NCBI GenBank assembly: GCA_030602885.1 | Contig: JAUVYV010000001.1 | Coordinates: 1 to 64,000 of the forward strand | DNA from: Phycisphaerales bacterium | GTDB taxonomy: Bacteria; Planctomycetota; Phycisphaerae; Sedimentisphaerales; Anaerobacaceae | Length of the DNA stretch: 64,000 nt | Reading direction: 5' to 3' | Shown: positions 61-55,394 of the stretch, piece after piece | Numbering within the stretch: position 1 is the stretch's first letter | Layout of the letters: each line of letters starts with the position of its first letter | Notes under the pieces: generated by a model | Told to the model about the DNA's origin: nothing | Database searches by the model: none | What the model saw: the letters and a program-made list of their open reading frames with translations, nothing else | Position numbers and translations under genes: made by a program

Positions 61-233
61 CTGAATCCCGAAGTTTACCCTCGAGTGCCTGCTACCTTGT
101 TTTTTCAACAGAGGGCGTCCTCGGCGATAAAAAATCCGTGCCCATCCGTGGTTAGAACTTTTTTTGTTACTTCGTGCCTTTGCTCGCCCCCCAAGGTGAG
201 TTAGCGACGAGAGACCAGCGACTAACGACTATT
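61..233. other. Intergenic stretch with short dispersed repeats
   Basis: No gene is seen. Bases 133-153 are the exact reverse complement of 55550-55570 (21 bp). Bases 194-229 are a run of GCGAC/GAGAC units related to the CGTCGCTCG-type repeats at 58830-58860 and inside mfd at 59350-59380. These look like members of genome-wide short repeat families. Confidence 0.6.
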
Positions 234-239
234 TTTCAC

Positions 240-268
240 TTGACATCCAACTTCCCATACAGTATAAT
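240..268 (+). promoter_or_regulatory. Consensus sigma-70-type promoter inside repeat copy A
   Basis: TTGACA at 240-245 and TATAAT at 263-268 are separated by 17 bp. Both hexamers and the spacer length are identical in the second copy (55360-55388, minus strand), while the spacer bases differ slightly. Confidence 0.8.
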
Positions 269-322
269 ACCCCGCTAACATATGAAAGCTTGATAAAAAA
301 CTAAAACTCGGAAGGTTCAACA

Positions 323-514
323 ATGCCCACGTCGTATTTACAAGATATTACCTTTTGTTTCTCAGCCCTTGAACTTTTTCAAAAATCAGTGTTAATCGGT
401 GTAAATCAGTGTCTAAAAACAAAACCGCCTATCCTGCCCAACTTAACTTGCTGGCAGTTTACAACCTTTTTATGCAAAACAAACCCAATGTCAAAATTAT
501 TAGACATCCCTTAA
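323..514 (+). CDS. Possible 63-aa protein encoded by the dispersed repeat
   Basis: The frame starts with ATG seven bases after GGAAGG and encodes 63 residues. The copy at 55304-55116 has the same start context, stops at the equivalent codon and has 62 residues; the only indel between them is three bases near codon 5. Residues from about 19 to the end are nearly identical (for example the segment PPILPNLTCWQFTTFL). Most base differences change the amino acid, which argues against strong selection on the protein, so this may be a by-product of conserved DNA. No domain is recognised. Confidence 0.22.
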   Translation: MPTSYLQDITFCFSALELFQKSVLIGVNQCLKTKPPILPNLTCWQFTTFLCKTNPMSKLLDIP

Positions 515-655
515 ATCTATGTATCAAAAGGACTTACAGAAAATTTCTTGGAAAATGCGACAAAAAAGCAAACCCAAACAAACCCAATTCAAAGCCAATT
601 CAAACCCAATTTCAGCCCAAACAAACCCAATTCAAACCCAATTCAAACCCAAAAA

Positions 656-1095
656 TCGCGCTGCAGTCCTAATAACCAGGTGTCCAATTACCCCTTACAA
701 CCCCTACATCTTACCCATCTTAAACTCGCCCAAACCCTTTAAAACGACAGCGGCAACGTCTGTCCCCTTGACGTTGCCGCCTCAAAATTTTTTCGAAAGG
801 AGGAGAAAGTTTTTCTTTTTTCTGTCTGCAATTACTTACGCACACAGCCGTGCACTGGTTCGACATTTTTGCGCAATTCTCAAGATTTTGCGCTATATTT
901 GAACGGATTTGGGCGTCGTTTCCCGCGATTTGTCCCCGATTCGAACCCTCGCACACCCTATTAGTACTGTCCCCGGACTCAACCCCCGCGCCCTAACAGT
1001 CGGCCAATGCCTGACTTACGGCCACTTTTCAACCTTTTACAGTTGTTTACTGGCTATTCTGCCGAATTCTATGTATATAATACGCATTCGCTTTT
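656..1095. other. Gene-free stretch before tRNA-Ser
   Basis: No convincing gene. The stretch contains one terminator-like hairpin (750-793) and AT-rich sequence with a TATAAT at 1076-1081, placed correctly to serve as the -10 box of the following tRNA gene. No good -35 box is seen for it. Confidence 0.5.
750..793 (+). terminator. Terminator-like hairpin downstream of repeat copy A
   Basis: An 11-bp perfect stem (750-760 with 770-780, arm GCGGCAACGTC) and a 9-base loop are followed by AAAATTTTTT at 784-793. It could end transcription started by the promoter at 240-268, giving an RNA of about 500 nt. No similar hairpin is seen next to copy B, so it is probably not part of the repeat. Confidence 0.55.
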
Positions 1096-6427: not shown

Positions 6428-9400
6428 ATGAAATCTAAAGTCTTGTCTGTGTGGGTAGTTGCTTTGGTTATCTGCTGCGTCTGCGGCGTGAGCCAGGCTG
6501 AAATCAGTTATGATAATGTCAGCTTTGCCTTTTCAGATACTGATGACACCACCCTGAGCTTCTCGCATGGTATCGGAGGCGGTGAAAACCGCATTCTTGT
6601 TGTCGGTATTGGCGCCGAAGACGATAGTGTTGCAGACCTTGAGATAAGCAGCGTCACCTATGACGGCGTTGCCATGGACCTTGTCGCCGGTTCGGCTGCG
6701 ATCGCAGGCACGGGCTGGCGGATGAAGACAGAGCTTTATTATCTGCTTGAAAGCGACCTGCCGGCTTCGGGTACATATACCGTCGTCGTTACATATACCG
6801 GTAACGTTCCATACAAGAGCTGCGGGGCGGTCTCACTGGCCGGTGTTGCCCAGTACGCTCGTGAAGCGGTGCAGACTAACAGCAATACGAGTTTCAACTC
6901 GATATCTACAAATATCACAACATTAACCGACGGTGCATGGCTCGTCGATGTGGTTGGCTGCGGTAATCCCGGTTCATTTACTACGACAGAGGTAGGGATG
7001 GTCGAACGGTGGGATATCGCATCTGGCAGCAGTTCCGCCGCCGCGGCCACAAAGCCGGTTGAATTCGCTTCGACCGCAACAATGGGATGGGAGCATAGCT
7101 CCAGTGTGAACCGGCTGGCACATTCCGTAGCGGCGTTTGCAGCAGCCGGTGGTGTCTCACCCTATCCGCTGGGTGACCTGAATCAGGATACCGCGGTGGA
7201 CAGGACGGACTTAGGTCTTTTCTGCGACCAGTGGCTCGATGCGAGCTGCTCAGGGCCGAATTGCGCCGACCTTGACGAGCAGAATGGTGTCAACGGCGTC
7301 GATTTTGCGATTATGATGCAGAACTGGACGGGGCCTTTGCCGGAAATGGTGATTTCCGGTTATGTGAAGACCTCCGGCAGCTCCGGAATTTCCGGTGTCA
7401 GCGTATCTGCGAACAACGGCGGCGGCTCGGATACTACCGATGCTTTGGGATATTACAGCCTTATAGTTCCAACGGGCTGGTCCGGCAGGGTGACGCCGTC
7501 GAAGGCCGGCTACACCTTCGGTCCATCCTACAGGAACTACACCAATGTGATATCATATCAGACGGACCAGGACTACACAGGGACTTTACAGACGCTTTCG
7601 ATCTCCGGTTATGTGGAGACATCCGGTAGTTCGGGAATATCCGGGGTCAGCGTATCTGCGAACAACGGCGGCGGCTCGGATATTACCGATTCTTTGGGCT
7701 ACTACAGCGTGGGCATTCCTTACGGCTGGTCCGGCAGAGTGACGCCGTCGAAGGGCGGTTACGGGTTCAGTCCGCCCTACAGAGACTATTCTAATGTGAC
7801 ATCCAGCCAGTCGAACCAGGATTATACCGGCACCGAACAGACTATATTTATGCTTGTTATAAACGAATTTATGGCGTCGAACAGCGAGACGTACATGGAC
7901 GACATGAATGAATATGACGACTGGATTGAAGTCTATAACGGCACAGACTCGGCGATAGATATAGGCGGGATGTATATCACCGACGATTTGAATGAGCCGA
8001 ACAAATATCAGATTCCCGACGATGCACCCGGCCAGACGACAATTGCTGCTTACGGCTACCTGATTCTTTGGGCTGATGGTGAGCTACCCGAGGGTAAGCT
8101 GCATCTGCCGTTCAAGCTGTCGAAGGACGGCGAGGACGTCGGCTTGTTTGAGGCCGACGGAACAACGATGATTGACGGACTGAGCTTCGGCGAGCAGGTT
8201 GCAGATATCTCTTACGGACGATACCCCAATGGTTCGGGGGGTTTCAAATACATGGGTGTTCCTACTCCCGATGCAATTAATGTCGATGGCTATGCGGGCC
8301 TGGTCGATGAAGTCGAAATAAGTCATGTCCGCGGTTTCTATGACAGTGTCTTCACTGTCGAACTTTTCTGTGAGAGTAATGCTGAGGATCTCCAGATTCG
8401 TTATACAACCGACGGTTCTGAGCCAACGGATAGTCATGGCAGTGTGTATAATCCTTCGGTACGCATATTTATTCCCACAACAACCTGTTTACGGGCTGCC
8501 GCATTCGCGCCAGGCTGGAAGGGCAGCGCAGTCAACACCGCTACGTATATCTTTCTGGACGATGTAAAGACGCAGGACGAAAGCGATGCGCAGGCCGTTG
8601 GATTCCCGTGGCCGAACTGGCAGGACAAAGACGGCGGGACATGGGCAGCAGATTATGAGATGGACCCGGACATTGTTACAGACCCCGGCTACAGCAGCAG
8701 ATTCGAATCTGCTATGAAGCAGATACCGACGATGTCTATTGTCACGGACGCGGACAATCTCTTTGACCCGGCCACCGGTATCTATGCGAACCCAATGCAG
8801 TATCATGATGATGAGAATCCGAGTCAGGACTGGGAAAGGGCCATATCGCTGGAGTACTTTGACCCGGCCACCGGTGAGGATTTCCAGGTCAATTGTGGGC
8901 TGCGGATAGCGGGCAATCAGAGCCGTGAGCCCGACTTGAACCCGAAGCATTCGATGAGGATATTTTTCAAGGGTGAGTTTGGTCCTTCGATGCTTGATTT
9001 TCCATTTTATGATCGCAGTGAGGTTGACAGATTCAACAACATATCTCTGCGAGCACAACATCATATGAGCTGGCTCACCGACGAAAGGCGGGCACAGTAC
9101 GTTAAAGACGCGTTTGCACAGGATACGCTTCATGATATGGGCTACCTGTCACCGGATTCGCGGCTCGTGCATCTGTATATAAACGGTATTTACTGGGGCG
9201 TGTATCAGGCGAGCGAACGGCCTGACCAAAACTTCCTGTCGCAGCATCTGGGCGATGATCCCGATCAATACGATGTCATTGAAGGCGTTCTTGTCTGGGA
9301 CCCCAATATAGAAGACACAGTTCCCGGAGTAGAACTCAAGAACGGGCTGCAGGACTGCTGGGATTACATGTGGGCCATGGTCAGCGACAACGATTCGACT

Positions 9401-54918: not shown

Positions 54919-55115
54919 AACGGTGGGCAGGATGGGAGGGATAGGGGGCCCTGGGGGGTTTCGAAATTGGGTTCGTTTTGGGTTTGATTGGGTTTGGTTT
55001 GGGTTTGTTTGGGCTGAAATTGGGTTTGAATTGGGTTTGAATTGGGTTTGTTTGGGGTTTGCTTTTTTGTCGCATTTTCCAAGAAATTTCCTGTAAGTCC
55101 TTTCTGCGCATAGCG

Positions 55116-55304
55116 TTAAATGTTGTCTAATAATTTTGACATTGGGTTTGTTTTGCATAAAAAGGTTGTAAATTGCCAGCAAGTTAAGTTGGGCAATATA
55201 GGCGGTTTGTTTTTTAGACACAGATTTACACAGATTAACACTGATTTTTGAAAAAGTTCAAGGGCTGAGGAATAGAATATAACATCTTGTAAATGCGTGG
55301 GCAT
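55116..55304 (-). CDS. Possible 62-aa protein encoded by repeat copy B
   Basis: ATG 55304 is preceded at seven bases by GGAGGG (55317-55312 on the minus strand). 62 residues, colinear with the 63-aa frame of copy A and ending at the equivalent stop. The middle and C-terminal half are almost identical. As in copy A, the excess of amino-acid-changing differences gives no support for selection on the protein. Confidence 0.22.
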   Translation of the reverse strand: MPTHLQDVIFYSSALELFQKSVLICVNLCLKNKPPILPNLTCWQFTTFLCKTNPMSKLLDNI

Positions 55305-55359
55305 TGTTGAACCCTCCGAGTTTAGGATACCGTATTAACTTTCTATTCGTTAGATGCGT

Positions 55360-55388
55360 ATTATACAATATGGGAAGTTAGATGTCAA
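55360..55388 (-). promoter_or_regulatory. Consensus promoter inside repeat copy B
   Basis: Minus strand TTGACA (55388-55383), 17 bp and TATAAT (55365-55360). Identical hexamers and spacing to copy A. Confidence 0.8.
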
Positions 55389-55394
55389 GTGAAA

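Follow-up and report, generated by a model that had tools for sequence, protein, structure and literature searches.

A dispersed promoter-bearing repeat in a planctomycete genome and its probable origin from a larger unit carrying the KHGL gene

A stretch of 64,000 nucleotides from a Phycisphaerales bacterium (the "window" hereafter) harbors two copies of a repeat that raises the question of why an element of some 400 nt should carry a complete promoter and translation start, and to which type of element it belongs. The copies lie in opposite orientation at 234-655 (+) and 54976-55394 (-) and are 88% identical. As reported in the first-pass annotation, they share a TTGACA-17-TATAAT promoter, a Shine-Dalgarno (SD) sequence and a frame of 63 or 62 codons, in which a single 3-nt indel (MPTSYLQD/MPTHLQD) precedes an equivalent stop. 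Copies or part-copies are found at about 45 places (59 BLAST pieces, far beyond chance) of the host genome, termed G000, which comprises 3.2 Mb in 128 contigs and for which all counts rest on sequence searches. Those with surroundings examined sit outside long reading frames, and several stop at contig ends, as repeats do. The boundaries of most copies are mosaic, not sharp. Elsewhere in the window, positions 7319-7816 are occupied by a tandem pair of 249-nt units, 77% identical.

The repeat is composed of a promoter block, a leader, a translation start, a variable middle and a 3' element with an array of boxes (Table 1). The start codon with the first codons reads ATGCCCACG in copy 1 and ATGGCCAC in other copies, and the fillings between start codon and boxes differ from copy to copy in G000. 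The AANCCAA cores of the copy 1 boxes are located at 482, 571, 581, 592, 603, 624, 635 and 646, with core-to-core spacings of 89, 10, 11, 11, 21, 11 and 11 nt. ATCCGTG/ATCAGTGT-type phrases are found at window positions 133-187 and 384-415, beside and inside the copies, as well as in many relatives, and seem to be an independent dispersed repeat. At the right end of five copies (L009, L011, L013, L024 and L028), hairpins follow the last box at a similar place with different sequences, their stems including GCTGCC/GGCAGC, GCGACCC/GGGTCGC and GCTCGGC/GCCGAGC.

Table 1. Features of the repeat in the window, with the basis or comment for each.
Feature	Position	Strand	Basis or comment
Promoter block: AT-rich upstream piece and hexamers	234..271	+	Block also precedes intact KHGL in unit C17 of G000 and KHGL in other genera
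-35 TTGACA	240-245	+	Copy 1; followed by a 17-nt spacer
-10 TATAAT	263-268	+	Copy 1
5' leader, one of several alternative variants common to copies	272..309	+	Copy alignment
SD GGAAGG (310-315), ATG 323 and first codons ATGCCCACG	310..331	+	Relic of the KHGL gene start
63-codon frame of the first-pass annotation	323..514	+	Not conserved; regarded as a by-product
Replacement segment, at the position of the KHGL gene	332..471	+	Absent from intact KHGL units
ATCAGTGT-type phrase, widespread, inside the replacement segment	about 384-415	+	Copy alignment, relatives
Second, overlapping frame (NKPN/QTQF)	409..672	+	Not conserved
3' element: box TGCAAAACAAACCCAAT at 473, core of ~80 nt, then box array	473..655	+	Same element follows the stop of intact KHGL genes
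Second window copy, anatomy as copy 1	54976..55394	-	First box 55157
Copy 2 promoter: -35 55388-55383, -10 55365-55360	55388-55360	-	Sequence
Copy 2 SD GGAGGG, ATG 55304, 62-codon frame	from 55304	-	Sequence

The exact pattern TTGACA-N17-TATAAT is present at 38 sites in the 3.2 Mb of G000, whereas the reversed pattern, used as a control, has none; 32 of these sites have the family spacer and are members of the repeat. The earlier observation that the promoter stays exact while its spacer drifts holds well: in an alignment of 27 copies, none of the 12 hexamer columns varies, as compared with 5 invariant columns among the 17 of the spacer. Comparing the invariance of hexamers with that of spacer and flanks in these copies yields a hypergeometric p=8e-6, and among 32 loose matches only 1 of 26 mismatches falls inside the hexamers (binomial p=1.4e-7, all positions weighted equally), both values being optimistic because the copies share ancestry. 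CTTGACA...AAC...G-TATAAT blocks are also dispersed in genomes G009, G013, G023, G353 and G366; in these genomes some hexamers vary, for example to TTTACA in G009 and G013 and to TACAAT in G366. The promoter does not extend to every copy: some (L015, L020, L022 and L047) are promoter-less and display another 5' block instead. Hexamer conservation supports, at the level of sequence, the proposal that the promoter is selected for transcription. It could serve adjacent host genes as a portable promoter, in keeping with its perfect consensus and with the presence of a downstream gene in front of some copies. Other copies, L063, L067 and L068 among them, however, face convergent genes, ~380 nt of element separate the promoter from any host gene, and the gene that follows one of the G366 copies has a promoter-like sequence of its own, which makes this role very unlikely.

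The frame and stop shared by the two window copies do not extend beyond this pair: over 24 copies, the frame from the conserved ATG measures 23 to 172 codons and breaks at random. In the best-aligned block, changes are distributed 17/33/26 by codon position, without a coding signature, and the overlapping NKPN frame fares no better. Inside KHGL reading frames, the box AACRAANCCAA falls in all three frames (14/8/9), giving ETNPI, NKPN and KQTQ; it is a DNA or RNA element. A real small-protein gene, of 63 codons or in the NKPN frame, would account for the SD and ATG retained in most copies, but given the variable length, the codon-position counts and the boxes in three frames it is hardly credible, and the coding reading of both frames is rejected; a small protein family is not supported. 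The 63-codon "protein" is judged to be the leftover start of the KHGL gene described below, a by-product. The planctomycete proteins rich in NKPN/QTQF mentioned in the first-pass annotation fit these strings, which come from a single DNA box read in three frames; this explains "hypothetical proteins" of that type.

Strictly conserved sigma70-type hexamers would also be expected of a family of small regulatory RNAs transcribed from this promoter and acting via the leader or box array. Against this, copies do not agree in the middle part of the transcript, an Rfam search of the window matched only tRNAs and nothing at the repeat, and no consensus fold was found for the 3' element (0 pairs in 21 diverse elements). 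A structured small-RNA family, another of the early proposals, is not borne out by the 3' element, and we consider a regulatory RNA improbable.

A different origin is suggested by two larger G000 units, C17 and C63, which hold a gene of 181 codons, "KHGL", whose end is separated from the box array by 9 nt. In C17, the family promoter block is located 84 nt upstream of the KHGL ATG, with an SD GGAGG. The C63 protein is 96% identical to that of C17, and its 5' block is the alternative one found in the promoter-less short copies. The two genes differ by 8/4/18 changes by codon position (21 synonymous, 9 not), and a pair of KHGL genes in genome G363 by 9/4/17; the KHGL gene is under coding constraint. 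The family has 64 named loci, all from planctomycete assemblies (labelled Phycisphaerae, Phycisphaerales, Sedimentisphaerales or Planctomycetota), encoding proteins of about 180-200 residues. The structure model is all-helical, of middling confidence (pLDDT 73), and finds no match in the PDB. KHGL returns no significant match in Pfam, NCBIfam or PHROG, and across these resources and the PDB no catalytic domain is recognisable, including the Y1 tyrosine (HUH) transposase. No literature on the KHGL signature, or on such repeats in Phycisphaerae/Sedimentisphaerales, was found in the papers searched. A phage link is rejected, as searches found no KHGL relative in viral contigs and no repeat in phage records, and so is a plasmid link, with only two partial KHGL matches. 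Distant relatives of KHGL (family f52; L177 and L179-L182) lack the boxes and have in common a 3' motif, GTAACATAATATAYATTATCAGACG, which is not dispersed, occurring in one copy per f52 genome tested.

KHGL and the boxes are closely associated. In 51 of the 57 KHGL loci long enough for this test, an AACRAANCCAA box follows on the same strand, at most 400 nt downstream, where the background expectation is about 0.4%. Of 60 genomes of the family, 46 contain the two-box pattern, with up to 136 matches per genome (overlapping matches inflate these counts), and none its reversed control. Boxes accompany KHGL in 34 of 36 genomes as compared with 12 of the 24 without a detected KHGL (p=1e-4, uncorrected for phylogeny and draft incompleteness); these 12 may reflect either incomplete drafts or a spread of the box without KHGL. 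The dispersed boxes are direct repeats, spaced overall by 10, 11, 21 and 89-91 nt, and the distance from the first to the second box is usually 90 nt (22 of 35 units). Paired boxes within a unit match in 27 of 35 cases versus 15 of 35 expected, a comparison from which shared ancestry was not removed. We infer that the boxes may be DNA binding sites, the 10/11/21-nt spacing fitting helical phasing; together with the 89-91 nt interval, it would be compatible with a protein bound along a single face of the DNA helix. These results tie one uncharacterised gene family to an intergenic repeat that reaches high copy numbers in Phycisphaerae-type planctomycetes.

The short copies can be compared with intact units in several genera. 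In G023, they run from promoter, leader, ribosome-binding site and ATGGCCACC directly into the segment situated 3' of the KHGL gene when the unit is intact. Aligned with intact L111, L171, L172 and L174 match the promoter at 80-84% and 270-317 nt of post-KHGL sequence at 79-86%, and skip the gene; they are evidently, judging by these alignments, internal deletions of the KHGL unit. In G366, L205 carries an in-frame deletion of the gene middle, L206 a decayed gene and L208 emptied copies, promoter and boxes being intact in all. The L206 pseudogene extends over 472-1100 and has its start codon and many conserved residues altered, with promoter and boxes intact. In G009, the KHGL start of L175 is broken and the gene truncated. 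In G000, L022 matches C63 at 88% upstream and 88% downstream, the gene being unmatched. An origin by internal deletion from a larger gene-bearing element, as with MITEs, is seen in G023 and G366, and the G009 copy and the C63/L022 pair agree with it. Because the replacement segment at 332-471 was found downstream of no KHGL gene, deletion in G000 is deduced from the two ends and from the other genera; most promoter-bearing G000 copies look like larger units hollowed out, with KHGL lost.

These blocks could, alternatively, be mosaic intergenic DNA, its independent modules (promoter, leader, ATCAGTGT phrase, boxes, hairpins) being shuffled by homologous recombination and gene conversion between repeats, with KHGL as a passenger and without any dedicated mobility system. 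Alternative 5' and middle blocks within otherwise matching copies, the separate occurrence of pieces in relatives, the absence of terminal inverted repeats (TIR) and the lack of a transposase-like domain in KHGL agree with it. Free shuffling, however, would not be expected to produce the KHGL-box linkage (51/57) and co-occurrence, and G000, G023 and G366 all show a fixed order that runs from promoter, ribosome-binding site and ATG to the box array, so that we hold such a mosaic to be somewhat unlikely. Because of that linkage and co-occurrence, and of the internal deletions in G023 and G366, the repeat is non-autonomous and probably derives, by internal deletion, from a larger KHGL unit that is itself dispersed. 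The non-autonomous mobile unit is the best of the three early proposals, in that the copies look like deletion derivatives of the KHGL unit. The complete unit consists of promoter block, leader, SD, KHGL gene and 3' AACRAANCCAA box array. Its derivatives lack the gene body, whereas the start of transcription, the ribosome site, the start codon and the boxes are retained; they would have been copied at the DNA level into many intergenic sites. RNA-copied retroposition is rejected by reasoning: the promoter lies upstream of the transcript and would be lost in an RNA copy, hence the copying at DNA level. Transcription may be needed for propagation or effect, and KHGL or a host enzyme may act on the boxes in trans, as RAYT does on REPs, an action of KHGL to which linkage and co-occurrence point.

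No terminal inverted repeats were found in the intact unit, just a local hairpin and one 12-nt pair at chance level. Nor were an empty site, a target duplication, end cleavage or movement observed, the relatives being other genera and many copies ending at contig ends. Genome G363 has 19 KHGL matches, full or partial, which often run out at a contig end. The left parts of two of them are 99% identical over 521 nt, as far as a GTAGGG palindrome beyond which the flanks are unrelated, and on the right side the homology common to all copies stops at the boxes. The GTAGGG palindrome pair left of KHGL units is seen only in this genome. A REPIN-like GTAGGGTGCGATGAATCGCACC palindrome pair borders the examined G363 KHGL units on the left or lies close to that edge (L189-L197; half only in L190), and also alone in L198, at about 1207-1279. 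A more speculative and rather unlikely reading is that KHGL represents an undescribed type of bacterial mobile or genome-colonising element, whose helical protein would recognise the helically phased boxes and spread its own unit and gene-less derivatives through planctomycete genomes in a transcription-dependent manner. If true, a helical protein without known nuclease fold would be involved, and the transcription-dependent step would explain the untouched promoter.

Among known systems, RAYT/REP (REPIN) systems (PMC3733652, PMC3116915) likewise feature a gene adjoined by a short DNA motif that is also dispersed in intergenic DNA. The gene occurs, like KHGL, in one to several copies with the dispersed motif beside it; KHGL and its motif also co-occur across genomes. 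KHGL differs by the absence of a Y1/HUH transposase domain, by boxes that are direct repeats instead of a GTAG-tagged (or CGTC-tagged) palindrome, and by dispersed copies that retain a full sigma70 promoter and start codon. SINE-like retroposons, too, are short and non-coding and conserve a promoter of their own, but the bacterial promoter here is upstream of the transcript and, by reasoning, would not survive in an RNA copy. In IS/MITE families, as here, deletion derivatives keep both unit ends and outnumber the gene-bearing unit, whereas neither terminal inverted repeats nor a known transposase were found for this repeat. The KHGL unit and its derivatives would form an autonomous/non-autonomous pair that is open to testing, and what the defective copies have preserved best is a bacterial promoter instead of a terminal repeat.
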